Shown one piece after another: positions 1,473 through 19,903 of a DNA stretch of 51,296 nucleotides. Below the pieces are notes generated by a model. That model saw only the letters and a list, made by a program, of their open reading frames with translations. It did not search any database and was not told the origin of the DNA. The stretch is from Tatumella ptyseos ATCC 33301 (GTDB lineage Bacteria; Pseudomonadota; Gammaproteobacteria; Enterobacterales; Enterobacteriaceae), in NCBI RefSeq assembly GCF_000735525.1, contig NZ_JMPR01000034.1:1-51296 (forward strand), written 5' to 3'. The position numbers and the translations under genes were made by a program. Position 1 is the first letter of the stretch. Every line of letters starts with the position of its first letter.

Positions 1473-1494
1473 GAAATTTGGCTCCTCTGACTGG
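1473..1494 (-). other. att site, distal end of tRNA-Asn island (22-bp direct repeat)
   Basis: These 22 bases are identical to 19822-19843. They comprise the last bases of tRNA-Asn including the CCA end, plus six bases after it (core on the plus strand: TTTGGCTCCTCTGACTGG). They mark the distal junction of the integrated element; identity is lost immediately beyond. Confidence 0.85.
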
Positions 1495-1656: not shown

Positions 1657-4600
1657 ATGCCTAGCGTATTTCAGATAGATCAAACAATTATAAAATCACT
1701 TGATGACAAAATAGCTCGTGAATTGATAGCAAGGCTGTGTCGTGCTGAGCTCCGAAAGCAATCACTTCCTGATTCCTGTGTTACTTGGGGTGGTGATCAA
1801 CGGGCTAAAGATGGTGGTGTTGATGTCAGGGTTGATTGTGCGACCACGTTAATTTCTCCTAATTTTATCAAAGCAAGTCAGACCATATTTCAGGTTAAAG
1901 CCGAAAAGTTTCCTCCAGCAAAAATTACGAAAGAAATGGCGCCTTGTGGAGATATTCGCGCTATTTTCCATGAAATTAGTCAGGTTTCAGGTGCTTATGT
2001 CATTGTCTCAACGAAAGATGATATTTCGGATGAAGGATTGCGAACGCGTAGAAACGCAATTCAGGAATGTTTAGCACAGCATGGGTTTATCTCATCTGTT
2101 ACGTTTGATTTTTATGATAGCCGCCGAGTCGCTGATTGGGTTGAAGAACATCCGTCGGTAATGACATGGCTGCGATACTGTATCAATCAGCCGCTGCGTG
2201 GATGGCGTCCTTATGGGCCGTGGGCGTATGACGAAGAAAACGTTGAAGCTGAATATTTGCTTGATGATAAAACCCGCGTATTTATGCCTGATAAAGATGA
2301 AGGTAGTAATGTTTCCGAAACGATTTCGACATTGCGTAATCAATTGGGCAGCTATGGAACTGCCTCGATTCGAATCGTTGGATTATCGGGCGTGGGTAAA
2401 ACAAGGCTTGTTCAGGCGCTTTTTGATACGAGAGTATGTCCGGATACAGTTTGTCCCCACAGAGATCATGTCGTTTATACCGATTTAGGGGATGAGCCAA
2501 ATCCAGCGCCACAAATTATGCTGGAACAATTAGTGGGTATCGATTCTGGTACCATTGTTATAGTGGATAACTGCGGTATTGTGACACATAACAAGCTTAC
2601 TGGTTATCTCAAGAACAAAACGGTCAATATTAAACTTATTACAATTGAATATGACATTCAGGACGATATACCAGAAAAAACATCATGCTATAGACTGGAA
2701 GGTACGACACCGGAGGTTATTTTTAGTCTTTTAAAGAAAAAATTTCCTCAGCTCTCAACTAATGATATCGAACGGATTGTTGATTTTTCTGATGGTAATG
2801 CTCGTGTTGCTTTTGCTTTGGCATCTACTGTTGAATCTGGAAACGACTTATCCCAGCTACGAGAAAGGGAACTATTCGAAAGACTTTTTCGGCAAAAGAA
2901 TGACCATGATGATAGCTTGCTGAGATGTGCTGAAGCTGCCAGTATTCTGTATTCATTTGATGGCGAGGATTTATCAAATAACGGCGAACTGGCTAAGTTG
3001 GCAGGACTGGCCGAGGTAAGTCCGTTAACGTTTTCAAGACACATGGTTGAACTGAAACGTAGAGGTTTATTACAATCGCGGGCGGAATGGCGAGCGCTTT
3101 TACCTCATGCCGTGGCGAATAGATTGGTAGTGCGGGTTTTGGAAACGGTTCCTGCTGAACATTTGATTCAGGTATTCATAGAACAGGGCAGTAAGCGTAT
3201 TGCACGATCGTTTACCCGACGACTTTCATTTCTGCATAATTGTCAGGAAGCCGTGAAAATAGCGGAAAAGATGCTGTCAGCTTCTGGCTATCTTGGTGAT
3301 TTTTCAAAACTCGGGTCTTATGAGGAACAGATGGTTGCGAATTTGGCTCCAGTTAATCCGTCTGTCACCCTTGATGTAATTTCCCGGCTGTGTGATGAGT
3401 CAACTTCAGAGACTCATGAGGACAGTTCCAGAGAATATTTTGCACGTTTGGCCAAGTCTATTGCGTATGAAACTCTATATTTTAATGATGCTGTTTTGAT
3501 ACTAAAAAAGCTTTACCTCTCTGAGTTAAACGAGAAAAAAAAGAAAGAAATAAGAGAAATAATATCATCACTTTTTTTCTGTCATTTATCAGGAACAGAA
3601 GTTGGACCGATTGAACGCCTAGGTGTTGTGAATAATTTTCTGAGTAGTACCAATAAAGCTGAGTATGAGTTGGGTATCGATTTGTTGATCACCGGTCTAA
3701 AAACGCAGGGCTTTAATGCTCATTACAGTTTCAGTTTTGGCGCCAGAAGTCGAGATTACGGTTGGTCCCCTAAGTCTGAAAAAGATTTTGTATTATGGTT
3801 TTGTACTTGGTTTGAACGGGCGCTCTCAATTGGCGAGCAAATTTCCGTTGACGGAAAAAGAGTTAGAGAGGAGATCAGCAAATCTTTACGTGTCGTATGG
3901 GGTGTATCCAAAATTGAAACTATGCTAATCCATCTGGCAGAAAAATTTCGAATAATTGATGGTTGGCCGGAAGCGTGGCTACTATCAAAAGTGTTATTAA
4001 AAAATGGGAACAATACATGGTCTGATGAATCGTTAGAAAATCTGAAAAAATTCGAGATGATTCTCAGGCCTGATGACCTTATATCTGAAGTCAGAGCCAG
4101 AATTATCGCCAGAGGGGGGATGGTCGAACACCTTGAAGAGGGAATGAACAACCTTTCCTATGAAGAAAAACGAATTTTATGTACCAAGAACACAGAGCTT
4201 TTAGGTTTAAGGTTAGCTGAGGATAAGGCTATCTTAAAACAGCTACTGCCCGAATTATGCGAACATAATAAAAGCGGTTTATATGATTTTGGGCTAGGAA
4301 TTGGAAAGTCTGGCTGTGATGTTGATTGGATATTACAGGAAATAAGAGTTTATTTAGCCAATGACAATAATGGGCAGGTTAACTTAAGCCTATTAAAAGG
4401 GATTATTAATAACTGGAAAGCTCGGGCTATGTTTGAAGTTGAGGGATTTCTAGACAGCGCCGTCTATGATTCAGTATGGAACAAACGATTTGTTGAAATT
4501 CAAGGAGTGACATTTCTTAATGCAAATGCATTTAAACGTTTATGCTATATATTAGAATTGGGTGAGTGTCCATCGTACCAATTTTCATATCTTGTAAATG

Positions 4601-5499
4601 TGGGGGCTGATAATTATTTCACTGTAGCACAAATTGAGATAATACTTCGTAAGTTATGTTTAAAGCAAGACAATGCTGGCACTATTTCAGCTTTAAATAT
4701 TTTATTTATTATAGTTCATAATGCAAAAAAACATGACCCAAAATATAAGCTTGAACTGGTGATATCCATAGGTAATTTTTTATCGTGCATGGACTGGGGG
4801 AAAGTTGACCGGGATGACGCCATGATGTCTCATGACGTTTGTGAAATGCTCCATTTTTTCTTAACTGATAAAAATTCAGAAAGTTTCATTGCTGATATAT
4901 TGAATAGAATGATGTCTACTATATCAAGTTGCTGGTATCGTTTTGATGAAACGCTAAAAAACGCAATAAGAACGTTCTTTAAACATTACCCAGCATTGTC
5001 ATTAGATATAATATGTAAGCCTGATGAAGATGGACTGTATGGCATTGCAAGCGAACTCACTTCAGCATCTTTGATAGAAAGAGAACAAGGCGGTGCTCTG
5101 GAGTCAGTCTCGGCTAAAATTCTTATTGAATGGTGCAATAAAGATAAACATCCTGAATCCCGTCTGGAATTTGTTGCTGATGGATGTAAGTTAATTGAAT
5201 CACACAAGGATGGTGATAGATATATATCTGAAACAGCCATCAAGATCCTGGAATTTTCTTCAAATAAATCTAAAATAATATCGTGCTTTATTGGGCGTTT
5301 TTTCCCCAGTTCATGGTCTGGGTCATTGGCAAATATTTTGGAGTCATACTTACCATTACTTGACGATTTTGTCATTGCAGGTGATGAAATCACTAACTCA
5401 GCAGTTGAAGAAGCAAAAAATAAATTAATAACATGGGTGGCTTTAGAAAGGCGTAGTGAATACGAGAGAAACAACAGCCAGAATCTTAGCTTTGAATAA
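1657..5499 (+). CDS. PD-(D/E)XK nuclease - STAND NTPase, Avs-like defence protein
   Basis: This 1280-aa protein has three regions. Residues 1-~180 look like a restriction-endonuclease fold, with GGVDV (D56) and QVK (Q79, K81) as the D...(E/Q)xK signature. Residues ~235-400 form a P-loop NTPase with Walker A GLSGVGKT (242-249) and Walker B IVIVDN (D304). The remaining ~880 residues are predominantly helical, like HEAT/TPR repeats. This order (nuclease, STAND NTPase, repeat sensor) is that of Avs/AVAST proteins, which detect phage proteins and activate an effector domain. I cannot assign an Avs subtype from sequence alone. A weak SD (AGTGAG) precedes the ATG. The gene is AT-rich, is the first of the island, and converges on the minus-strand operon with only 13 bp between stops. 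Confidence 0.75.
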   Translation: MPSVFQIDQTIIKSLDDKIARELIARLCRAELRKQSLPDSCVTWGGDQRAKDGGVDVRVDCATTLISPNFIKASQTIFQVKAEKFPPAKITKEMAPCGDIRAIFHEISQVSGAYVIVSTKDDISDEGLRTRRNAIQECLAQHGFISSVTFDFYDSRRVADWVEEHPSVMTWLRYCINQPLRGWRPYGPWAYDEENVEAEYLLDDKTRVFMPDKDEGSNVSETISTLRNQLGSYGTASIRIVGLSGVGKTRLVQALFDTRVCPDTVCPHRDHVVYTDLGDEPNPAPQIMLEQLVGIDSGTIVIVDNCGIVTHNKLTGYLKNKTVNIKLITIEYDIQDDIPEKTSCYRLEGTTPEVIFSLLKKKFPQLSTNDIERIVDFSDGNARVAFALASTVESGNDLSQLRERELFERLFRQKNDHDDSLLRCAEAASILYSFDGEDLSNNGELAKLAGLAEVSPLTFSRHMVELKRRGLLQSRAEWRALLPHAVANRLVVRVLETVPAEHLIQVFIEQGSKRIARSFTRRLSFLHNCQEAVKIAEKMLSASGYLGDFSKLGSYEEQMVANLAPVNPSVTLDVISRLCDESTSETHEDSSREYFARLAKSIAYETLYFNDAVLILKKLYLSELNEKKKKEIREIISSLFFCHLSGTEVGPIERLGVVNNFLSSTNKAEYELGIDLLITGLKTQGFNAHYSFSFGARSRDYGWSPKSEKDFVLWFCTWFERALSIGEQISVDGKRVREEISKSLRVVWGVSKIETMLIHLAEKFRIIDGWPEAWLLSKVLLKNGNNTWSDESLENLKKFEMILRPDDLISEVRARIIARGGMVEHLEEGMNNLSYEEKRILCTKNTELLGLRLAEDKAILKQLLPELCEHNKSGLYDFGLGIGKSGCDVDWILQEIRVYLANDNNGQVNLSLLKGIINNWKARAMFEVEGFLDSAVYDSVWNKRFVEIQGVTFLNANAFKRLCYILELGECPSYQFSYLVNVGADNYFTVAQIEIILRKLCLKQDNAGTISALNILFIIVHNAKKHDPKYKLELVISIGNFLSCMDWGKVDRDDAMMSHDVCEMLHFFLTDKNSESFIADILNRMMSTISSCWYRFDETLKNAIRTFFKHYPALSLDIICKPDEDGLYGIASELTSASLIEREQGGALESVSAKILIEWCNKDKHPESRLEFVADGCKLIESHKDGDRYISETAIKILEFSSNKSKIISCFIGRFFPSSWSGSLANILESYLPLLDDFVIAGDEITNSAVEEAKNKLITWVALERRSEYERNNSQNLSFE

Positions 5500-5512: not shown

Positions 5513-6112
5513 TTATTTACCACAGGGCAACTTTTCTTGTTCCGTCGGTGACCAGCATAAGTTGAGGTAGTGACATGTCTGACAACAGACTCTTTCATCA
5601 ATTTGTAAAATATGACATTTGCTGTTTCTACGATCGTACACAACTTGATGAGCGCAATGATGTATTTCCTTATCGGTAAAGATAACTTTAAGATCGGTAG
5701 AGCGAATACTAATAGCGGAAATCTCAATGGCACAATTCTCAGAATGGCATTGTTCCCATGAATGAAAACGGCATGAATCTATCAATGGGCTATTACGAAG
5801 ATAATGATTTTCGGTCCCTGTAACTACCAACCATTCAGTATGATAGTTTTTTATGTTTTTGACCATCAAAGGGAAATTATTTGTAGTCGAAGATGCTGAT
5901 GGAAAGCCCGGAAAATCTTCAACAGAGGAAACCGTTAGTCTGCGGCCTAACTCTTCTTCGCAGGTAGTATGAAGTTCCTGAAAGCAAGCTGTAATAGAAT
6001 CTAAATGCGTCGTGAGATCGCCTGCATCTGTAGCGCAATTTTGGGTGTATTCGAGCGTGTAATGCTCCCCGTGTAATGCTCCCCTTTGTTTGCTACAACA
6101 GCTAAAACGCCA
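5513..6112 (-). pseudogene. displaced 3' part of the HsdR_N-like nuclease gene (frameshifted)
   Basis: An open frame runs from 6112 to a stop at 5513 without a convincing start of its own. If one copy of the 14-bp tandem repeat at 6057-6084 is removed, the upstream nuclease gene reads straight into this frame (GEHYT then LEYTQNC) and gains about 170 residues. This part is rich in Cys and His, with pairs such as CHSENC, HHC, CCQTC and NLC, suggesting a zinc-binding C-terminal domain. It is probably untranslated unless the duplication reverts or ribosomes shift frame. An alternative is a separate small protein from TTG 5869 (118 aa) or the ATG codon just after it, but no SD supports that. Confidence 0.7.
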
Positions 6113-6954
6113 TCATGGCGTTGCAGAATGAGTACCGGATAAATCAATACTTGTGGTTTTACTCTAAAAAGTCGGCTGCCTGTTTCTTCGTAATGAACGT
6201 GTAGGCCATAAAATGCAGAGTTCAATGAATTAATATCAACATATTCTTTTATTTGCGCAGGGCGCAAAGGAAACGGAATTTCTTGTGCCAGTACTGAACA
6301 GTGTAAAAGATTAAACAAAGCATCGACATCGCTTTTGTATGTTTCCAGCTTGAAAACTTTAATATCGCTTGTACTTACTCTGCCATCAACAAACGTTAGA
6401 ACAGGGTTTGTAAATACTACCGTCCATTGCCCACTGGAGAGAACAGCACAAGGGGGGTTATGCTCGTATTCCTTTTTCATGGTACACACGTAACCCATGA
6501 TCTGTTTCAGATAGTCATGCCATTGTTTTGTAACAGGTGATTCATCTTCAGGCTTATCATCCAGAATATGGCGGATTGCGGCGGCAATAAGATCGTCGTC
6601 CGTGGCTCTCGTTTCGGGATTACGGGCGGAAACAAAAGGTTTATCCCAGGCTTTTGCTTCAAAAATCATTAAAGGTGCTTTTGTTTCTTCCTTTAAGCCA
6701 AGGTAATCCATAAAGCGTGTCGTTTCGGCCTTTATTCTGGCTTCTTCCGCCACATTACCTTTTGCACCCAGACGCCAACCCAGAATTGTCAATAGACGAT
6801 CGAAGAACAGGATGCGCGTATGATGTTCAAGCAGCGTTTTCTTGCTCTCTTTCGAATAGGGATCAAGATCCTCATTTTCAAGAGACTGTGTCATATCCTC
6901 AATTAATGTGGATAGATCTCCACGAAACTGATTACGCAATTGATGTTCGTTCAC
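6001..6954 (-). CDS. HsdR_N-like PD-(D/E)XK nuclease domain protein, truncated by frameshift
   Basis: Third gene of the operon, 317 aa from a GTG at 6954. It resembles the N-terminal nuclease domain of type I restriction HsdR subunits: a helical start, LLTILGW, then a D (RFMDYLG, D83) and EAK (IFEAKAW, E99 and K101) forming the PD-(D/E)XK core. The GTG overlaps the upstream stop as GTGA, the usual sign of translational coupling, with a weak GGA ahead. A TTG at 7002 would add 16 residues but overlaps the neighbour by 52 bp and is less likely. The gene ends early because of a 14-bp tandem duplication at 6057-6084. Without it the protein would be about 475 aa. The nuclease core itself is intact, so the short form might retain activity. 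Confidence 0.75.
   Translation of the reverse strand: MNEHQLRNQFRGDLSTLIEDMTQSLENEDLDPYSKESKKTLLEHHTRILFFDRLLTILGWRLGAKGNVAEEARIKAETTRFMDYLGLKEETKAPLMIFEAKAWDKPFVSARNPETRATDDDLIAAAIRHILDDKPEDESPVTKQWHDYLKQIMGYVCTMKKEYEHNPPCAVLSSGQWTVVFTNPVLTFVDGRVSTSDIKVFKLETYKSDVDALFNLLHCSVLAQEIPFPLRPAQIKEYVDINSLNSAFYGLHVHYEETGSRLFRVKPQVLIYPVLILQRHDGVLAVVANKGEHYTGSITRSNTPKIALQMQAISRRI
6057..6084. repeat. 14-bp tandem duplication causing a frameshift
   Basis: GTGTAATGCTCCCC is present twice head to tail (6057-6070 and 6071-6084). Fourteen is not a multiple of three, so the duplication shifts the minus-strand nuclease gene into a frame that stops at 6001. Removing one unit joins the gene to the open frame down to 5513. 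Exact short tandem duplications can revert by slippage. Confidence 0.9.
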
Positions 6955-9900
6955 TGAATCAATTCCGGCAGCCGGTAAAGCAGGCGTCTGGCTGCGGGCC
7001 AACCGGCTGCCAGAAAAATATCCAGACTCTCTATCAAACGAGCTCGTCTGTTCTCATCTTCAAAGATGGTTTTATGATCGGCAAGAAACACGCCCATCAT
7101 TTTTACCAATTGTTCCATTCCCAGCGTTTCGTTCTGGAAACCGGATTTTTCTGCATGACTTAACGCATGAGCCATCAGATCGAAACATTTGGCAGGATCG
7201 ACAGGAACAAGCGTTTCAAGCAACTCCAGAAGATAATAAACAGTATGTGGCGAGCTGCAATCACCAATACGGCGCATGTGTAATTCAGTTTCGTTCAGAA
7301 ATTGCTTAAGTTCTTCATATTCTAATGATGTCTTGTCAGAATTATGCTTCCCTTCACAAGCGAAACGAAGTTGTAGACATGCCCTGTCTATAATCGCAAA
7401 GCAGTGTTTTACGTTTTCCCTTTCGGCCTCTGTCAGGTCAGTATGGGGGGAGTATTGTTCCAGTTTTTTACCAGCAGCATCAATAATGCTATAGGCCATA
7501 TCCAGCGCCCGATGCCTGACTTCTGTATCCTTCAGTTTACTTTGTCTGGCAAGGCCAAAAACAAATCCTTCTCTTAATGTAAACAGGACTTGATTAAGCT
7601 CATCATGATAAACGGTGGGTTCGGTAATCCAGCCCTGGAGAATATGGTACGATTCTCTGACTTCATGGACTCCCCAGAGAATTGCCAAATCGCCGCTGAC
7701 CAGAGTACGAATACGTTTCTGGCGTTCGGGATGGTCATTAAAACGCCCCAATAGCTTCTGAATAAGGCAGAAAGAACGGGTTGGCTCGGTATGTAACAGA
7801 TTTCTTATTCCATCCCCAACCGTATGCTCTATTACACCGGTATTGGTTTCCTGCTCCAGCCGTTCACTCAGGTAACGCCATACGCTATCCCGATCGACAT
7901 CCCACAGCCGTAGCAGCCGTACTGATGCCTGTAATCGAACGGCCGGATGAGGATCAATCAACATTCTTTCAATATCTGGTTTCAGTCGCTCATACAGATC
8001 GGGGCGTAATGGAACAACATCGAGAATAATCTGTGCAGCATCAATCCTCGGTACAGGTGAGCCCCAGCTAACACTATCTTCAAAGTTTTCTTCTGTATCT
8101 TCATTCAGGATTGGATCAGTTGCACAGGAAGCGAGATGTACTAAATCTAAAAAATGAGATGTCAGTTTATCAGCCCGATCGTCGTCTAGCGGAGGCAGCA
8201 ATTTCTGTTCAACAGCAGCAGCGCAGGCCCGGACAATGACATCCTCAGCGGTTGTACGCACATAGGTATGGGCGTGTTCCAGATTGAGCTGCTCATGAAG
8301 CGGTTCGAGAATGCTAAAAACATCCTCCAGCGATAATTCGGATGAAAGCGTGTTATTCGTTGTTAAACCCAACGCAGTTTTAGCGGTTTTGACCGCGTTG
8401 ATAAGAGTGATGTTGTCCGGTTCGTTCCGATCCAGACCATCGATAAAATCGTAAGGTATATCGGTGCTGACTGTAACGGGGGAAATGTTGAAAAGCCTCT
8501 TATTACCAGCTGTTTCACCATCCCTTGGGGTGTTCTTCAGGAAATTTCTGGCTTGTACAGTCTGAAGATTCTCTGAACCAATTGTACTGAAAAGGCGGTA
8601 CAACAAACTGGTTTTTGCTTTCTCAGGGTAAACATAATCAGAGAGGTCATACTGAAAGGCGGAATTTTCCAGTTCTCGCCGCTCATGCTCTGAACGATGC
8701 GTAATTCCCATAGCGACCAGATCGATAGCGTCTTTACGGGTATCTTCATTTTGGATAAATGCTTCTTGTGCAGCAACAGGCCAGAGAAAATCAATCAGGC
8801 CATCATTGCGTCTATTTGCAGCCAGAAAGATTCTGGCCCAGAAAATTGCCAGCGAAGCTTTTTCACAGATAAGTCTTGCCAGAACGAGCGCGTCGGGTTC
8901 GGGCGCGCTTTGCAAGCGCTGAAATAATTTTTTAACCAGTACCTCTCCGTCATGAGCATGTTTACCATCAGGATCGTGCGCCCAGATATAGCTGCGATCG
9001 GCCTTAAGGTAAATATCATGCCCAAGAACGGGCACATGCATCACAGGTGTATCTAAGGGATGACGTCGAGCAACATACCCGCTTATTGCGCGCACTGCGG
9101 CATCCACAGCTAGACTAGGATATTGTTCGAGAAAACGGGAGAAATATTCTCCAAGTGAATAACGAGCCGATTCATAATCTTGTCGGGCATTTGACCTCAG
9201 AGGCAGGATTCGGCTGTTTCCCAGCGTTGTTTCCCGTTCTTCTGTGACATCATGGGTATAGACAAACTCGAATACGTTAACTACAAACTCAGGCGCACAA
9301 TCTCCGATTTTCTTAATGTTGTAACAGAGCACGGGGATCTCTTCTGAACCAAAGCGTTGGAGACGTTCGGAAGAAATAAGCTGCTCCAGTAAATGGCAGG
9401 ATGCCTGCACATCGGTATTGATAGTATCTGTAACGAGAAGAATAGCGCTTCTGACAAAATAATCTGGTTCACTCAGCGCAAGGGCGTAGGAAAACACAGC
9501 GCGACTGGCTGTCCCCAGCATATTGCATAAGGGTTTATCGGTAACTCGCTTGATAAGCGGGTACAACAGAAAGCGTAATGTTTCTGCGACCTTATGTACC
9601 TGGGGCGTCAGCGCTGCTACCAGATATACCCATGGAAGAGCTACAACCTCTTTTTCATCTTCAAAACGTATTGCCAGCGCTCCGCAGATATGACTGAGCG
9701 TGGTTATCATCTTCTCATCATCGGCAGCCACTCGTTCAGCAAGCCAGAGCAGGTCATGTTGAGCAGTGGGATAATCTGCCGCAATCCGACCCGCCGAACT
9801 ACGAATGATAGGATCGCCATCTTTGTCGTTGACCAGATAACTCACTGCCTGCCAGAAACGGTAATGGTTATTGTCATAACTCCAGATTTCCTGAAGTACA

Positions 9901-11807
9901 AAACCGAGCGCCGGGGATAGCATTAGCCCCAGTGCCTGTTGTTTGTGGAAACGTAATGTCCCCGCAATTAGCGTTTCTGGATCGAATGATGTCTGGGCCG
10001 CAGCGTAGTCAAACAAAAGGTGATGGCGAAACTGTATCCGACGGTCATTTTGTTCCCGAATCAACACCCCTTCGCGGCAGAGTGTATCGATCATGTCGGC
10101 ATCCGTGTCCGCAAGCAGGGATGAAACACTGAGTGAACGCGCATTAATCATGGCATCCACTAATGTTTTTATATTTCGTGTGGCCTTAAGCCCATGAGCC
10201 TCAACGCGACGTTGCCAGTACAGTTTTAAGAGTTCTGACTGAGACGAAATATCCGTCAACCTGACACCCGTCTCTTGGGAAACCAGTTCTGCCAGTAGTC
10301 TGGTATTAAACGGGACTTTCGCTAGATCCCGCAGTTTTTTAGAAGCGCCCTCAAGGGACGTAGCCAGAGATGGAGATTTTTCCAGTAGTTGGAGAAATTC
10401 ATCATCTGACCAACGTGGGATAACGATGTGGCGAACTGAAGAGAACAGAGTATCAGCACGTTTAGCAACAGGAGGGGTACCTTTAAACAAATCACGAAGT
10501 TTTACCCCCATGCGCAGATCAAAGCTGCGTATAGAAGCAACCACTCGCCATCTGCCACCCCAAGCTAACACTTGCTCAATGAGTGGGCGAAAAACGGCCT
10601 CTCCCTTGCCCCCTCTGGTGGCATCCAGCGCATCTATAATCAGCCAGCTCTGATATGAACCATCCCACGCCTGAAGCACGTCGGTCAAACTATGTTCAAG
10701 CCTGAGTTCATGGGTTAGGTGCCCGAGTGACTCAACGGAATAGCGATCAACGGCCAGTTCCAGTACATCATCTCCCCGTTCGCGTAGGCTGCGGGCCAGT
10801 GCATTCAGCACTCCGCTTTTACCCGCTCCGGGTTCACCAATAATTAATAGCGAACCTGACTGTACGGCTTGCTCAACTTCATTCTGACACTCCCTGCGGA
10901 GGGTAACGGGCTGGCCTGACTGACTTTCAATGGCCTCATATTGATTAAGGGAAGCAGCAATCTCCTGAGAATGCTGTTGAAGTCGGGCAATATCATCCTT
11001 GTAGCGAGGAGGTGCTGCGAGTTCGATCCCTTTCCCTGCTAGCTCGTTGCGAAAAGTTGACAGATCGCCGCCATCACGGCTGGACATCATTTTTCCGCAA
11101 ATTTCGGTAAGAACACTTAATGCTGCCGTTGCCTGTGTGCCTTTAGCAAGGATCTGAGTAAGCCGTGAACAGGCGAGTAAAGCCATGTTTTCAACATCAA
11201 TCACCAAAACAATAACCAGGCGGCAAAGTTCAGATACAAGGTGAGGCGGTAGGGGCGCGGAGGTTATGCTATTCCAGGCTGTGGAAATACAGCGTTCAAA
11301 AATGTTATACGCCTGTACCTGCTTTTGATTCATCGCTCCGCTGCCGTGCTGAGAAAAAAGAGATAAGGCAGCAGGAAGAACGTCGCGAATTGAAGCCGAA
11401 GCTTTGGTACTGACGGCTAATACCAGACGGTCTTTATCCGGATCGAGAGGTCGATTCCAATCCAGAGAGCCATTGCCATCCCGGCAGGTTAGCCACTGTC
11501 GGACAAACTGTTCCACAGTCCGATAAAAAGGCTTTTTTTCATCATCTGAAAGCGACAGCGTTGTTTTCGCCTGAATGGCGATAAAACCACTTACGGATGT
11601 AGCCACCAGTATATCGTCAACGGGCGCTTCGGTTTCAAAGCGCAACCAGACGGGAGATGCCTCGCCCAGTCCTAATCGTGCATCCAGTCTGCTACCAGAC
11701 AGGAGCTGAGCGGCAAAGTGAGCCCCCAACTGCTGCTGAAATAAAATACCACTACTGGTTGCTGCTCCACCGCCATTTGCGGGACCGTTCAGATTGATGT
11801 CAGACAA
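6951..11807 (-). CDS. large P-loop (STAND-type) NTPase with N-terminal nuclease-like domain
   Basis: Second gene of the operon, 1618 aa. Residues 1-~160 resemble the DUF4297/Cap4-type PD-(D/E)XK domain: GILFQQQ near residue 20, VDDILV (D64/D65) and IQAK (Q79, K81). Walker A is GEPGAGKS (324-331) and Walker B is SWLIIDALDA (D392). About 1,100 residues of helical, HEAT-like sequence follow. The start is a TTG preceded by AAGGTGA at ideal spacing; an in-frame stop lies just upstream, so no earlier start is possible. The stop overlaps the GTG of the next gene. The combination suggests an NTP-driven sensor or scaffold controlling nuclease action in a defence complex. I do not recognise it as a named system. 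The 227-bp gap to the upstream gene shows no gene. Confidence 0.75.
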   Translation of the reverse strand: MSDINLNGPANGGGAATSSGILFQQQLGAHFAAQLLSGSRLDARLGLGEASPVWLRFETEAPVDDILVATSVSGFIAIQAKTTLSLSDDEKKPFYRTVEQFVRQWLTCRDGNGSLDWNRPLDPDKDRLVLAVSTKASASIRDVLPAALSLFSQHGSGAMNQKQVQAYNIFERCISTAWNSITSAPLPPHLVSELCRLVIVLVIDVENMALLACSRLTQILAKGTQATAALSVLTEICGKMMSSRDGGDLSTFRNELAGKGIELAAPPRYKDDIARLQQHSQEIAASLNQYEAIESQSGQPVTLRRECQNEVEQAVQSGSLLIIGEPGAGKSGVLNALARSLRERGDDVLELAVDRYSVESLGHLTHELRLEHSLTDVLQAWDGSYQSWLIIDALDATRGGKGEAVFRPLIEQVLAWGGRWRVVASIRSFDLRMGVKLRDLFKGTPPVAKRADTLFSSVRHIVIPRWSDDEFLQLLEKSPSLATSLEGASKKLRDLAKVPFNTRLLAELVSQETGVRLTDISSQSELLKLYWQRRVEAHGLKATRNIKTLVDAMINARSLSVSSLLADTDADMIDTLCREGVLIREQNDRRIQFRHHLLFDYAAAQTSFDPETLIAGTLRFHKQQALGLMLSPALGFVLQEIWSYDNNHYRFWQAVSYLVNDKDGDPIIRSSAGRIAADYPTAQHDLLWLAERVAADDEKMITTLSHICGALAIRFEDEKEVVALPWVYLVAALTPQVHKVAETLRFLLYPLIKRVTDKPLCNMLGTASRAVFSYALALSEPDYFVRSAILLVTDTINTDVQASCHLLEQLISSERLQRFGSEEIPVLCYNIKKIGDCAPEFVVNVFEFVYTHDVTEERETTLGNSRILPLRSNARQDYESARYSLGEYFSRFLEQYPSLAVDAAVRAISGYVARRHPLDTPVMHVPVLGHDIYLKADRSYIWAHDPDGKHAHDGEVLVKKLFQRLQSAPEPDALVLARLICEKASLAIFWARIFLAANRRNDGLIDFLWPVAAQEAFIQNEDTRKDAIDLVAMGITHRSEHERRELENSAFQYDLSDYVYPEKAKTSLLYRLFSTIGSENLQTVQARNFLKNTPRDGETAGNKRLFNISPVTVSTDIPYDFIDGLDRNEPDNITLINAVKTAKTALGLTTNNTLSSELSLEDVFSILEPLHEQLNLEHAHTYVRTTAEDVIVRACAAAVEQKLLPPLDDDRADKLTSHFLDLVHLASCATDPILNEDTEENFEDSVSWGSPVPRIDAAQIILDVVPLRPDLYERLKPDIERMLIDPHPAVRLQASVRLLRLWDVDRDSVWRYLSERLEQETNTGVIEHTVGDGIRNLLHTEPTRSFCLIQKLLGRFNDHPERQKRIRTLVSGDLAILWGVHEVRESYHILQGWITEPTVYHDELNQVLFTLREGFVFGLARQSKLKDTEVRHRALDMAYSIIDAAGKKLEQYSPHTDLTEAERENVKHCFAIIDRACLQLRFACEGKHNSDKTSLEYEELKQFLNETELHMRRIGDCSSPHTVYYLLELLETLVPVDPAKCFDLMAHALSHAEKSGFQNETLGMEQLVKMMGVFLADHKTIFEDENRRARLIESLDIFLAAGWPAARRLLYRLPELIQ

Positions 11808-12034
11808 GTTTCACCTTCATATAATGAATGCTGTGCTTTAGCACTATTCTACCTGTTCTTACGGATTATTTTACGGATGGTTTATTAGTAAAACAAAGCG
11901 ATAAAAAACTCTGAGAAGGATAGTTAGCATCGTTTGCTACCCTAATCCAGAAAACCAGCCGTTGCGGAAAGCCTAATCGAGCAACACGAAACCATGGCAG
12001 AGTGGCTATGGATAAAGCGTATTGGCAGGATAGT

Positions 12035-13990
12035 TTATAACCGCCTCTGACAGCGCCGCAAAAAACGTCCTTCTGACACCCTATCCACAAAGGGGCGCAG
12101 CAACATTGCAACCTTCATCGCTTCCACTTCGTTAATATGGCAGTCACCATCGCGAAAGAGCGCCATCATGCCACGAAGCAGATAATCATACAGGGACGAA
12201 TTTTTTTCATGAACCGGACTTTCCATCCGATACTTTTGCAATGCTGTTACCACGGACTCATGGTCTTCCTGCGAAGCGCCGACGCTACTACGGATATAAC
12301 CCCAGTAATTGACGGTAGTCTTGTTTAACAAATAGAGAAAAGCGTCGCAAAGTTGCTCAAACTCATTAGCCTTAAAGTATACCCGGCGAGTATAGATATT
12401 AAAAAAATCCTGTAGTTCAGTCAGCAACGTTAGCAAACTCTGTTTGCTGTCTATCTGTTCAACAGAGATATTACTTTCCGGTTGGTAGTTTGAATAAATA
12501 TCATCGGATGTATAGGGAATATGGCGGGGGGAGCGAAATGGCAGGCGTTGCCAGCCTCTGCGTTCTGGGAAGTAATTAGCACAGTACCAGCTATCTGCCA
12601 CAGGGATTAATTTCTCCATCAGCCAGCGATATGTTGTCAGTGCATCCCAGTAATTACGAGGTCCGATGGCGTCCTCTTCCCTATTATCAAGATTATAGCG
12701 ACTGGGAGGTTGCCAGATTAGCGCTACGCGATGATTAGTCAGGCGATGACAATTGGGATCGCGGCTGGCTAATAGCGTGACGTGATGCCCTTCATTCATA
12801 ATCTCATCTTTATGCCGAGTGAAAACCATAATACGCTCACGCACAGGGTTAAATATCGACCACTCGCCTTCGGTATCCAGATAGTCATGATGTTGACAAA
12901 AGATGTCGATGCGACCCCATAGCCAGAAAGGAATGGTGATGAGATGAATATTATCGCCGAGTGGCGTACTGTTTGAAAAATCAACAGTCCGGCAAATCCG
13001 ATCAATTTTTTCCATACGCTGTTTGTAGCATTTCCAGAATTTGTCAAAAGCCTCACAGAGCGAGCGGGTTTCATTTAGGGTAAGCAGAAGACGACAGTTT
13101 CCAATGTCGCAATAATAATTCTCGCCATGAGATTCTTTTAAAACCCATGGTCTGACTCCCGCCTCCGGTGGGCTACCGACCCCTTCGAAGGCTGAATTTA
13201 GCAGGTTACTCGGACTCATTGTCAGCAATACATGGCTATAGCGGCCATTTCGAAAATCAATAAAACAGGAAAGGGGGTTCCCTTTCAGGTTAGGTAAAAA
13301 CGCCTGAATAAACACATGATCATTCTGAAGCGTATAGGTATCACCAGTAATGTGTTCATATGGATGTGTGTAATTTCGCCAGGCAGAAGATTCGTTATAG
13401 TCCCACACACCATAGTTTTTGATATTTAACAGTGCTCGTTCGCCATAAAACAGAGCCACCCAGCTCTCGTGACAAAAGCGATACAACAGATCTGGACAAT
13501 AAGGATTTTTCAGCCAGTCGTGGATCAATTCCGTATCAAGTAGGCGATGTACTATATTCTGATCCTTAAAAAGAGCCTCTTGTTTTTTGTATTCCGCAAT
13601 TAACTTCGCTGACGCTTTCTCACTGAGGAAAATGTAAAACTCATTGATATTCACCTGCCATTTTTCCCGATGTTCATTAAAGCGCTCGACAGTGGAAATA
13701 TATTGACTTTTTGTTAATTTTTTATAACGTTTCACTTCGTATAACGAATAAATGTCCTGATTGCCGTGCTGACGATGCGTAAAAATATCCGCCCCAAATT
13801 GTGATTGGCCGGAAAGGCCAATCGTCATGGCATCAACTATCTCGCCGTCTTCGATTTTCAGCCGTTTTTTGATGAGCTCACAACAAAATAGTTCAAACGT
13901 TTTCTGTTCCATAAGCTCCAGTGGTAAATAAGCATCTGCTTTCCCTACTGGCGGCCCCAGCTTTACAATCTGTTGTTCTGTAATATTCAA
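12035..13990 (-). CDS. Mrr-like restriction endonuclease-fold protein, 651 aa
   Basis: First gene of the three-gene operon. The N-terminus reads like an Mrr-type nuclease: FELFCCELIKKRL (residues 32-44), GLSGQSQFGADIF with D68, then YEVKRYKKLT with E85 and K87, i.e. D...ExK. The remaining ~500 residues match nothing I recognise and are rich in Trp, Tyr and His. They might recognise a ligand or bind the partner NTPase. Translation starts at a TTG with a strong GGAGGG Shine-Dalgarno six bases upstream. No transmembrane segment is visible. Taken with the next two genes it makes a locus whose three products all begin with nuclease-like domains. Confidence 0.75.
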   Translation of the reverse strand: MNITEQQIVKLGPPVGKADAYLPLELMEQKTFELFCCELIKKRLKIEDGEIVDAMTIGLSGQSQFGADIFTHRQHGNQDIYSLYEVKRYKKLTKSQYISTVERFNEHREKWQVNINEFYIFLSEKASAKLIAEYKKQEALFKDQNIVHRLLDTELIHDWLKNPYCPDLLYRFCHESWVALFYGERALLNIKNYGVWDYNESSAWRNYTHPYEHITGDTYTLQNDHVFIQAFLPNLKGNPLSCFIDFRNGRYSHVLLTMSPSNLLNSAFEGVGSPPEAGVRPWVLKESHGENYYCDIGNCRLLLTLNETRSLCEAFDKFWKCYKQRMEKIDRICRTVDFSNSTPLGDNIHLITIPFWLWGRIDIFCQHHDYLDTEGEWSIFNPVRERIMVFTRHKDEIMNEGHHVTLLASRDPNCHRLTNHRVALIWQPPSRYNLDNREEDAIGPRNYWDALTTYRWLMEKLIPVADSWYCANYFPERRGWQRLPFRSPRHIPYTSDDIYSNYQPESNISVEQIDSKQSLLTLLTELQDFFNIYTRRVYFKANEFEQLCDAFLYLLNKTTVNYWGYIRSSVGASQEDHESVVTALQKYRMESPVHEKNSSLYDYLLRGMMALFRDGDCHINEVEAMKVAMLLRPFVDRVSEGRFLRRCQRRL

Positions 13991-14081
13991 CGGACTCCCT
14001 CCGAAAAATTGGTGAAGATGATACTTTCGCGACCAATGCTATATTTATAACAATCTGCGATCTGTATTCCACCACTTCCTA

Positions 14082-15144: not shown

Positions 15145-15210
15145 CCTGCACAAAATGCTTCATGACCTTAGAGAAGCACCTGATGTATCAGGACGGTCGC
15201 CTTTTACCGG
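15145..15210 (+). repeat. imperfect direct repeat, left copy, flanking toxin-antitoxin module
   Basis: This ~65-bp block (TGCTTCATGACC..AGAAGCACCTGAT..TCAGGACGGT..TTTTACCGG) recurs in similar form at 16107-16180. Both copies contain a small hairpin of the form CCTGA-N4-TCAGG. The toxin-antitoxin genes lie between them. Confidence 0.6.
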
Positions 15211-15333
15211 CAATGTCGCCTTTGAAAACTGCCGGCTCCATCTCTGGAAGGGGTAAGGCTTTCTTCACGCTTCGTTATACCAAGGAGATTACAATGAATC
15301 TGACTGAAAAATGTACACGGCCAGCTGTTGATG

Positions 15334-15349
15334 TTATATTTAAATATAA
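15334..15349. promoter_or_regulatory. palindromic operator upstream of antitoxin
   Basis: TTATATTTAAATATAA is a perfect 16-bp palindrome 16 bp before the antitoxin ATG and overlaps TATAAT-like -10 sequences. Autorepression by the antitoxin or toxin-antitoxin complex through such palindromes is usual for MazE/ChpS-type operons. Confidence 0.5.
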
Positions 15350-15365
15350 TATTCGGAGGTTTTCT

Positions 15366-15623
15366 ATGTATACCACTCGCCTGAAAAAAGTCGGCGGCTC
15401 TGTCATGCTGGCAGTCCCTCCCGCCGTGCTGAAAACGCTGGCGCTGTCGACGGACAGCGAAGTAGGCATGACCATTGATAATGGCTGCCTGATTATTGAA
15501 CCGCAAAAACGGCCTCGTTATTCGCTTGATGAACTGCTGGCGCAGTGCGATCCGCACGCCGAAATGAGCGAAGAGGATCGGGAATGGATTGATGCACCAG
15601 CGGTGGGCAAGGAGATCCTGTAA
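15366..15623 (+). CDS. ChpS/PemI-like antitoxin (MazE/AbrB-type)
   Basis: 85-aa antitoxin starting at ATG 15366 with GGAGG seven bases upstream; upstream in-frame codons are not preferred. The N-terminus (TTRLKKVGGSVMLAVPP) is the swapped-hairpin AbrB/MazE DNA-binding fold. The C-terminal half has RYSLDELLAQCD, nearly identical to E. coli ChpS, which binds and inhibits the toxin. Its TAA is immediately followed by the toxin ATG, so the two are translationally linked. It probably autoregulates through the palindrome at 15334-15349. The module may stabilise the island or act in phage defence. Confidence 0.85.
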   Translation: MYTTRLKKVGGSVMLAVPPAVLKTLALSTDSEVGMTIDNGCLIIEPQKRPRYSLDELLAQCDPHAEMSEEDREWIDAPAVGKEIL

Positions 15624-15956
15624 ATGGACAGAGGGGAAATCTGGCTCGTTTCACTTGATCCTGTTGCAGGTCATGAACAAAGTGGAAAACGTCCGGTACT
15701 CATCGTTTCACCGGCTTCCTTCAATAAGCTGACCCGGCTACCCGTTGTTGTCCCCGTGACCAGCGGCGGAAACTTTGCCCGCGCAGCTGGTTTTGCCGTT
15801 TCACTGGACGGGGCGGGAACAAAAACAGCGGGTATTATCCGCTGTGACCAGCCCAGAACAATTGATATGGCTGCCCGCAACGGCAAACGGCTGGAACAGA
15901 TACCTGACAGTATCGTGAATGAAGTGCTGGCCCGGCTGGAAGCTATTTTGAACTGA
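15624..15956 (+). CDS. ChpB/PemK (MazF-family) endoribonuclease toxin
   Basis: 110-aa toxin of the CcdB/MazF fold. It has RGEIWLVSLDP with the conserved Arg, then GHEQSGKRPVLIVS, and VVVPVTSGGNFARAAGF, closely matching E. coli ChpB and PemK. These toxins cleave mRNA at short motifs. It starts directly after the antitoxin stop (TAA ATG). Length is normal for the family and the active-site region appears complete, so the toxin is probably functional. A strong terminator follows. Confidence 0.9.
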   Translation: MDRGEIWLVSLDPVAGHEQSGKRPVLIVSPASFNKLTRLPVVVPVTSGGNFARAAGFAVSLDGAGTKTAGIIRCDQPRTIDMAARNGKRLEQIPDSIVNEVLARLEAILN

Positions 15957-16764: not shown

Positions 16765-17652
16765 ATGGGAATGCTGGAGCGGGAAATGACGCGGTGGGCG
16801 AGGCAGGCGGGTGGCAGTCACAAGACGGTTCACGACCGCATCGCGCTGGCGCAGCGGTTTTGTGAGCGTCTGGTGATGGCGCAGAATATTCAGATACGCC
16901 GGGTGGAGCACCTTAAGGCACGGCATATTGAGGGCTATGTCCGGGAGCGGCTGGCGCAGGGCATCTCAAAGCGCTCCCTGCAAAACGAGATGGCGGCGGT
17001 GCGCTGTATTCTGCGGCAGGCCGGGCGGGTAAAACTGGCTGACGGCGACCGGATAAGCAACCGGGCGCTGGGTCTTGCAGGCGCATCGCGCAATGGCACA
17101 AGGCGGGCCATCCCGCCGGAGAATTACCGTCAGGCGCTGGAAACGGCCCGCACGAAAGATGCGGGGCTGGCGGCGGCGATGGAGCTGGCAAGGCTGATGG
17201 GCCTGCGCTCGCAGGAGGCGGTACAGAGTGCGCAGTCGCTGAAAACGTGGAAGCAGGCGCTTGAGCGCGGGGAATCCCGCTTAACCGTGGTGTTCGGCAC
17301 CAAAGGCGGACGACCCCGCGAGACGATAATTCTTGATGCAGGCGTAATTAAAAAAGCGCTGGATACGGCGCTGACTGTGGCAGAAAATCATTATGACAGG
17401 CTGATTGATAAGCCCGACCTGAAAAGCGCGATGAAATACTGGCACAGCCAGGCGTCGGGTCTTGGCTTAACTGGCGTATATTCCCCGCACTCACTGCGCT
17501 ATGCCTGGGCACAGGATGCCATTCGTCATTATCTGGCGCAGGGATTCAGCGGGAAAGAGGCGCTGGCAATGACGGCAATGGATTTGGGGCACGGCGACGG
17601 GCGCGGACGGTATGTGGCGCAGGTGTACGGGCGAAAGGCAGGTGCTGACTGA
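16765..17652 (+). CDS. second tyrosine recombinase (integrase-domain protein, SAM_2/Integrase_1 type)
   Basis: 295-aa tyrosine recombinase of the type with an N-terminal SAM-like domain (residues ~10-85) and an Integrase_1 catalytic domain. Catalytic residues visible are R148 (GLRSQE), K180 (GTKGGRPRET), H242 and R245 (SPHSLRYAW), H276 (LGHGDGRGRY) and Y283 or Y288. The ATG is preceded by AAAGGGGGA. This is not the P4-type integrase found beside the tRNA. It belongs to a family common in enterobacterial islands and conjugative elements and may resolve or excise a sub-element. It ends at the start of the hairpin array. Confidence 0.8.
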   Translation: MGMLEREMTRWARQAGGSHKTVHDRIALAQRFCERLVMAQNIQIRRVEHLKARHIEGYVRERLAQGISKRSLQNEMAAVRCILRQAGRVKLADGDRISNRALGLAGASRNGTRRAIPPENYRQALETARTKDAGLAAAMELARLMGLRSQEAVQSAQSLKTWKQALERGESRLTVVFGTKGGRPRETIILDAGVIKKALDTALTVAENHYDRLIDKPDLKSAMKYWHSQASGLGLTGVYSPHSLRYAWAQDAIRHYLAQGFSGKEALAMTAMDLGHGDGRGRYVAQVYGRKAGAD

Positions 17653-18403: not shown

Positions 18404-19666
18404 TCAGGCTGCCTTATGCTGCCGCGCATAAATATACGGCGCAATGTACCCTTTGCTGCTCGAATCCAGATAATCCGACCACCACTGCATCATGGCTTTA
18501 CGGGCGTCGAGGTGTTCAGCGCGGTGGATATACTCCGCCCGCACGCTGTTGCGCTCCTGATGGCTCATCTGTCGCTCAACGGCGTCCCGGGACCAGAGTT
18601 CAGACTCCACCAGTGCGCTACAGGCCATTGCCCGGAAACCATGTCCACATACTTCTGTTTTTGTGTCGTACCCCATCAGACGCAGCGCCCGGTTGACGGT
18701 GTTTTCACTCATCGGCTTGTATGGGTTATGGTCGCCGGGGAACACCAGTTCCTGATGACCGGATATCTCCTGAATCTGCTTCAGAATGGCAATCGCCTGC
18801 CGGGAAAGCGGCACGATATGCGGGGTACGCATTTTTGCACCACGGCCAGAAAACCGGACTTTCTCAATCGCTTCGCGGGTGGCGGGAATAGTCCAGATTT
18901 TGTTTCTGAAATCAATTTCGCCCCAGCGGGCAAAGCGTAGTTCGCTGGAGCGGATAAACAGGTGGAGAGTCAGCACCACCGCCAGCCTTGTCAACTGCCG
19001 TCCCTGCTGATAATCGCCAATACGCTCAAACAATTCGGGCAGGCGCTCCAGCGGCAGGGCGGGATAATGATTTTTAACCGGCGGTGCGGTGACGCCTTCC
19101 AGATGCAGCGCCGGATTGTTTTCAATGAGCCCCTGCTGAACGGCGTAACGCATGATGTTGCAGAGCTGCTGCCGGGTACGGGACGCGACTTCCAGAAAGC
19201 CTTTTTCCTCGATAACTTTCAGCAACGCGGTGAAGTGTTGCGTTTTCAGTGAGGTTACAGGCAGATGACCAATCGACGGAAAAATATGGTTGTTCATACT
19301 GGCAAGAATGCGCTCTGCATAATCCGCCGACCATTTTTTGTTGGTCTTGTGCCATGCCAGCGCCACGGCTTTAAAACATTTTTCCGGGGATACGGCAGCT
19401 TTCTCCGTGATGCGCTGCTGCGCCGGATTGATATTCTGCGCCAGCAGCTTGCGGACACCATCGCGCTGTTGCCGTGCCTCCGCGAGAGAAATCAGCGGAT
19501 AGGCACCCAGACTGACACGGGACTCTTTGCCGTTGAAGCGATACTTGAGATACCAGATACGTGAACCGCCGGGATTGACCAGCAGATACAGACCGTGTGA
19601 ATCAGACAGTTTTACGGGTTTAGAAGAGGGTTTTAAATTGCGGATTTTTGAATCGTTTAAAGACAT
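18404..19666 (-). CDS. P4-type tyrosine integrase of the island
   Basis: 420-aa integrase of the P4 family. It has the characteristic N-terminal DUF4102-like domain (KIRNLKPSSKPVKLSDSHGLYLLV, RVSLGAYPLISLAEARQQRD), a core-binding domain, and a catalytic domain with R239 (FIRSSELRFARW), H342 and R345 (GHGFRAMA), H369 (QMSHQERN) and Y379 (AEYIHRAEHLDARKAMM). The start at ATG 19666 is chosen because it begins MSLNDSKIRNLK as family members do. The open frame extends 17 codons further up without support. It lies beside the 3' end of tRNA-Asn, its target, and catalyses integration and excision. The catalytic residues are intact. Confidence 0.93.
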   Translation of the reverse strand: MSLNDSKIRNLKPSSKPVKLSDSHGLYLLVNPGGSRIWYLKYRFNGKESRVSLGAYPLISLAEARQQRDGVRKLLAQNINPAQQRITEKAAVSPEKCFKAVALAWHKTNKKWSADYAERILASMNNHIFPSIGHLPVTSLKTQHFTALLKVIEEKGFLEVASRTRQQLCNIMRYAVQQGLIENNPALHLEGVTAPPVKNHYPALPLERLPELFERIGDYQQGRQLTRLAVVLTLHLFIRSSELRFARWGEIDFRNKIWTIPATREAIEKVRFSGRGAKMRTPHIVPLSRQAIAILKQIQEISGHQELVFPGDHNPYKPMSENTVNRALRLMGYDTKTEVCGHGFRAMACSALVESELWSRDAVERQMSHQERNSVRAEYIHRAEHLDARKAMMQWWSDYLDSSSKGYIAPYIYARQHKAA

Positions 19667-19707
19667 TTGGGGGTCACTCCAGAATCGAACTAAACTGACC
19701 CCAGATC

Positions 19708-19717
19708 TGACCACCAA
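19708..19717 (-). promoter_or_regulatory. candidate integrase arm-type site (right end)
   Basis: TGACCACCAA matches 1566-1575 at the other end of the island; a related TGACCCCA lies 12 bases away. Inferred arm-type site. Confidence 0.3.
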
Positions 19718-19821: not shown

Positions 19822-19843
19822 GAAATTTGGCTCCTCTGACTGG
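19822..19843 (-). other. att site, integrase-proximal end of tRNA-Asn island
   Basis: A 22-bp sequence identical to 1473-1494, overlapping the last 16 bases of tRNA-Asn. The island supplies a perfect replacement for the tRNA 3' end, leaving the gene intact. Confidence 0.85.
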
Positions 19844-19903
19844 ACTCGAACCAGTGACATACGGATTAACAGTCCGCCGTTCTACCGACTGAACTACAGA
19901 GGA
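19828..19903 (-). tRNA. tRNA-Asn(GUU)
   Basis: 76-nt tRNA with encoded CCA. The minus strand begins TCCTCTGTAGTTCAGTCGG, has the anticodon loop ACTGTTAAT (GTT), a T loop GGTTCGAGTCC, and ends GGAGCCA. It is essentially identical to E. coli asnT/U/V/W. It serves as integration target for the P4-like island. Confidence 0.97.

Follow-up and report, generated by a model that had tools for sequence, protein, structure and literature searches.

Three minus-strand genes in Tatumella ptyseos

The window analysed here, a stretch of 51,296 nucleotides from Tatumella ptyseos ATCC 33301 (contig NZ_JMPR01000034.1), encodes three proteins that each carry a nuclease-like motif. The genes all lie on the minus strand and are labelled X, A and B in the order of transcription; open-frame analysis of the window confirms their positions and common strand as given in a preliminary description of this DNA. 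X (12035..13990) encodes 651 residues, with an Mrr-like PD-(D/E)XK motif at the N-terminus and a C-terminal part to which no function is assigned. A (6951..11807) encodes 1618 residues that combine an N-terminal nuclease-like motif, a STAND-like P-loop NTPase and HEAT-like repeats, and corresponds to PDC-M54A of the PADLOC database. B corresponds to PDC-M54B and is split between two frames, a first part with an HsdR_N-like motif (6001..6954) and a second part encoding a Cys/His-rich C-terminal end (5513..5869). What is said here of the folds of these proteins is based on motif evidence and on weak matches to profiles. The preliminary description proposed one undescribed three-gene defence set. 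We favour two independent cassettes, with a probability of roughly 0.62: a PDC-M54 A-B pair in which B is broken, and a separate, uncatalogued, Mrr-like gene X.

The A-B pair and PDC-M54

A matches the PDC-M54A model (PDLC04702) with 2568.8 bits and over its full length, residues 1-1618 aligning with profile positions 1-1621. B lies directly downstream, and its two parts fall in order on the PDC-M54B profile (PDLC04706), the first on positions 1-303 (457.5 bits) and the second on positions 359-475 (182.6 bits). The accession that follows the PDC-M54B models is PDC-M55A, and the consecutive accessions contain models for PDC-M54A and B only; as far as accessions show, PDC-M54 is therefore a two-gene entry. 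On these profile matches the A-B pair is a further member of this catalogued candidate, with overlapping genes, and differs from it in the interruption of B and in the additional upstream gene X found in its lineage. The preliminary description took a match to a named system as a point against its proposal, and since A and B match PDC-M54 this now applies to two of the three genes. Only X is still uncatalogued.

The TGA stop codon of A overlaps the GTG of B by four bases, as GTGA, in all eight loci examined (the window and seven others of the nine A+B loci, with Enterobacter sp. EA-1 excluded), which suggests translational coupling. The open frame of B extends from 7002 (TTG) to 6001, and the GTG at 6954 is the likelier start because the residues encoded after it correspond to the B start in genome G698. 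The interruption falls between about 6050 and 5870, beyond which the PDC-M54B profile resumes in another frame. The A-B system is thus probably impaired in this strain.

One paper (PMC12988326) presents the PDCs as candidates from 'guilt-by-embedding', with validation pending for most of its core set, in passages that make no mention of PDC-M54. A full-text literature search, the scope of which excludes bioRxiv preprints, returned no paper naming PDC-M54.

Conserved residues in A and B

In an alignment of A with ten homologues (24-49% identity to the window protein), E58, D64, D65 and Q79-x-K81 are invariant in all ten, as are the Walker A residues GEPGxGK (324-330) and D392/D395. Weak Pfam matches to STAND/AAA, nSTAND3 and HEAT-type families were obtained among ten A members at E 0.05. 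The earlier reading of A as a STAND-like P-loop NTPase is supported. The N-terminus had also been described as DUF4297/Cap4-like, and this finer assignment finds no support in Pfam: Cap4_nuclease/DUF4297 (PF14130) is absent from the 25 families shown, of 26 matched by the same ten members. In HerA-DUF4297 too a nuclease works with an ATPase, but HerA is a separate ATPase, and the families shown for A do not include Cap4_nuclease.

The layout of A resembles that of Avs/AVAST proteins, which have a nuclease-type N-terminus, a STAND NTPase and C-terminal repeats. By profile A falls outside Avs, and membership was rejected because its scores are far too low (PADLOC Avs4, 8.6 bits, E 0.058; NCBIfam Avs4, 11.3 bits against a cut-off of 1500).

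An A profile matched chain A of PDB entry 9n00, a 1523-residue 'AAA family ATPase', with E 2.9e-13. The match is colinear over four stretches, namely the VDD..QxK nuclease motif, the NTPase, an extension of the NTPase and a DPHPAVR-type repeat (12.1 bits), although similarity is low despite the colinearity over NTPase and repeat. A solved relative of A is available in PDB 9n00/9n01/9yix, and the literature search found no name for the system behind 9n00. Searching PDB with the single A sequence gave only two matches, both designed proteins (E 0.021 and 0.085).

B retains E44, E72, D84 and E100-x-K102 in all seven homologues from other genomes. Its end carries eight Cys and three His residues that are equally invariant (C384, H387, H419, H420, C421, C434, C444, C445, C448, C454 and C465), and from this pattern it probably binds zinc. 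The residues claimed earlier as nuclease motifs in X, A and B are all invariant in divergent homologues. The naming of the B domain as HsdR_N fared less well. B reaches 12.2 bits with Pfam HSDR_N (PF04313; E 0.16, cut-off 25.1), none of the seven homologues matches that family at E 0.05, and hhalign gives E 0.83, so that neither the curated score nor profile similarity places B in the family. A PDB sequence search with B returned chance-level matches only.

X as an Mrr-like protein

The Mrr catalytic motif is GxD..(E/Q)xK. X agrees with it in all nine rows of its alignment (21-87% identity to the window protein), in which Q64-x-G66-x-D68 and E85-x-K87 are invariant; the copy from Pseudomonas luteola, only 22% identical, retains all five residues. 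This part of the earlier Mrr-like assignment stands. Family membership by profile does not, as the window protein has no Mrr_cat match in Pfam at E 1 and falls below the curated Mrr (PF04471) score. A single one of the nine members, not that of the window, reaches E 0.05 against Mrr_cat (E 2.4e-4).

Using hhalign and a profile of Mrr proteins from three genomes (the strain's own, G1088 and G445), X aligned at E 6.4e-4, its GxD and (E/Q)xK falling in register. Control alignments to the same profile gave E 0.66-0.74 for C-terminal and middle parts of X, A and B and 0.82 for the N-terminus of A, but 0.019 for that of B. The relation of X to Mrr is on this evidence suggestive and not proof. X shares the motif register of Mrr-type restriction endonucleases, and its long C-terminal part matches nothing. 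No model in PADLOC, Pfam, NCBIfam or PHROGs matches the protein at cut-off, none in PADLOC or NCBIfam does so even at E 1 and none in PHROGs at E 0.01, and a PDB sequence search gave chance-level matches only. Ratios of nonsynonymous to synonymous substitution (Ka/Ks) of 0.127-0.138 between the window, G698 and Limnobaculum indicate purifying selection.

Distribution of X and of the A-B pair

A pattern scan of genome contigs for X matched 63 stretches, ten of which are relatives; with the window, G698 and a P. luteola plasmid these make 13 X loci. Three of them (the window, G698 and Enterobacter sp. EA-1, L045) are flanked by A or B, and at the remaining ten X occurs without either. Among nine A+B loci X is present at the same three and unseen at six, which are two Rhizobium plasmids, a Sphingobium plasmid, two IMG/VR contigs and genome G1009, where Gabija genes precede A+B by about 1 kb; at L060, one of these six, the sequence ahead of A (about 500 bases) is too short for a judgement. 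These six loci and G698 carry B in a single frame. The neighbourhood comparison does not confirm that the three genes form one conserved set. A single three-gene operon is rejected by this distribution together with the gap of 227 bases between X and A, which do not overlap.

The companions of X vary from locus to locus. Limnobaculum (L044) has the closest X outside the three loci (87% identical), and its DNA is homologous to the window from about 110 bases ahead of X as far as the X stop codon, after which the genes are different. The three genes that follow X there (L044 12086-19680; 642, 622 and 1173 residues) match nothing in PADLOC at E 0.01 and nothing in Pfam above cut-off, and are a possible uncatalogued set. 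At L048, GajA-GajB directly precede X and a helicase/DUF2290 pair follows it; at L049, X is beside Avs3a. In Duganella (L051) X lies downstream of TniB/TniQ, with a STAND-like gene also present, and in Ralstonia (L053) about 3 kb before TnsB/TniB/TniQ, so that it is possibly transposon cargo in both. At L052 X adjoins a cytosine methylase and a protein whose integrase-like match falls just short of the Pfam cut-off, and at L050 a PLD-like gene whose match is likewise just short of it. Since A and B are catalogued and X stands beside many different neighbours, the three genes probably do not form one new three-part system.

Such varied company raises the possibility that X is a general accessory nuclease serving different sensor systems wherever it is located, given that it adjoins Gabija, Avs3a, a STAND-like gene, PDC-M54 and the three-gene set of Limnobaculum. 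We consider this unlikely, as co-location in defence islands requires no functional link, transposon genes lie near X at L053, and no defence gene was noticed at L046 and L047 in a list of open frames, the neighbours there not having been searched.

A tRNA-Asn gene lies within about 9 kb of X in the window, G698, Limnobaculum and EA-1, which fits a hotspot with cassette exchange. The three loci that hold all of X, A and B are related (DNA identity of 95% between the window and EA-1 and 80% between the window and G698). The EA-1 copies of all three genes are split over many frames, and the homology breaks off within B; the integrity of that locus is therefore uninformative.

Eight further A loci have no B by profile, and six of these count, L064 and L065 having been left out for a contig end or a broken A frame. 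Beside A at two loci without a recognised B (L038 11001-12584 and L039 10827-11315) there is a HEPN-domain or abortive-infection-family gene, and such genes are perhaps alternative partners of A.

Both A and X are rare in whole-genome samples. A was found at E 1e-40 in two of 394 genomes of the order sample and five of 398 of the phylum sample, and X in two of 394 (single protein, E 1e-3) and one of 398 (alignment, E 1e-20), the strain's own genome included each time. In a profile search listing 179 of 369 genomes, only the own genome and G155, of the matches listed, align over the greater part of the profile; the others cover short segments, chiefly at the P-loop, and were discarded. Fifteen plasmid records contain A, seven of which were examined. 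Viral contigs yielded no relatives of X or of B and none by a distant A alignment, a null that for A means little because this alignment missed two A loci seen by a single-protein scan. Phage records gave no A at E 1e-5, and E. coli genomes have no near copy of 5513-14000.

A possible link between X and the A-B pair

Several observations weigh against two independent cassettes, or against parts of that reading. X, A and B stand in the same order at the window, G698 and EA-1, which makes a local functional link possible. The six distant A loci with sufficient downstream sequence have no recognisable B, and B may thus not be essential. The hhalign probability of the X-Mrr relation is only 11%, and the N-terminus of B reached E 0.019 with the same Mrr profile. 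The VDD..QxK match between A and 9n00 contributes 0.1 bit, negligible by itself, and PDC-M54 is an unvalidated defence candidate.

The shared order, with similar spacing at the three loci, could mean that X is the third component of a lineage-specific PDC-M54 variant in which three nucleases surround one STAND sensor, and PD-(D/E)XK-type motifs are indeed present in X, A and B alike. We regard this as quite improbable in view of the many loci at which X or the A-B pair occurs without the other, the different genes that follow X in Limnobaculum and the lack of overlap between X and A; moreover, shared descent of related loci, all near tRNA-Asn, can explain the gene order. More doubtful still is a scenario in which an enterobacterial lineage recruited X as a third PDC-M54 subunit, giving a STAND-gated complex of three different PD-(D/E)XK nucleases that perhaps each cut a different form of DNA.

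Island setting

The three genes sit on an 18.4-kb island at tRNA-Asn with matching end repeats, and both an integrase island beside a tRNA gene and a defence neighbourhood are supported. The tRNA-Asn gene (19828..19903, minus strand) is the likely integration site. A 22-base direct repeat, a likely attachment site (att), spans its 3' end (19822..19843, minus strand), and a second copy, 100% identical over the 22 bases, marks the other end of the island (1473..1494, minus strand). None of 100 shuffles contained two matches to the 16-base core of the repeat at two or fewer mismatches. Beside the tRNA gene lies an open frame (18404..19717, minus strand) whose product we take from its sequence to be a P4-type tyrosine integrase; it has no PADLOC match. 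As regards a P4-like element, the analysis covered this frame and the end repeats.

Between the repeats, in order, are PD-Lambda-4_A, B, A, X, a MazF-like pair, a second integrase-like frame and the presumed P4-type integrase. The gene at 1657..5499 on the plus strand, previously called Avs-like, encodes a P-loop protein that matches PD-Lambda-4_A (PDLC03991) with 781.2 bits. The one PD-Lambda-4_B model tried (PDLC03992) matches nothing in the genome, and the gene is possibly an orphan or a one-gene variant. In the small pair (15162-15956) one frame matches phrog_4324, of unknown function, and the other encodes a MazF-like growth inhibitor (phrog_1936), and the second integrase-like frame (16765-17652) encodes 295 residues that match phrog_1 at E 4.4e-9.

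An interrupted B and a PD-Lambda-4 gene for which no partner was recognised are what a decaying island without a working system would leave. Decay of this extent is nevertheless improbable, as X and A have open frames and are conserved (Ka/Ks of about 0.13-0.14, a value between genomes, not within the strain), and the end repeats and the integrase frame are present.

Elsewhere in the same genome, contig C4 carries Mrr_cat and HSDR_N genes close together at 134330-139341, both above Pfam cut-off.

Proposed functions and their meaning

The gene set, its homologies, the invariant residues, the A-B overlap and the separate distribution of X are observed; for the two proposed cassettes we infer the following functions, defence included. 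A would act as a STAND-type sensor. On detecting an infection signal with its C-terminal repeats it would oligomerise via its NTPase and activate its own N-terminal PD-(D/E)XK-type nuclease. B, translationally coupled to A, would supply a second nuclease with its putative zinc-binding end, and the resulting DNA cleavage would either halt the phage or kill the cell. X, with its own upstream region, would be a separate Mrr-like PD-(D/E)XK endonuclease gene that restricts foreign or modified DNA, and it is probably a stand-alone restriction-type gene.

Attention thus shifts away from a presumed new trio and towards two questions that can be treated separately. The first is whether the candidate pair PDC-M54, a STAND-type protein with a coupled, Cys/His-ended nuclease, is a defence system. 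The second is whether the uncatalogued X family, members of which occur on islands and close to genes of Tn7-like transposons, is a restriction gene that works alone. Intact natural copies of both the PDC-M54 pair and X exist.

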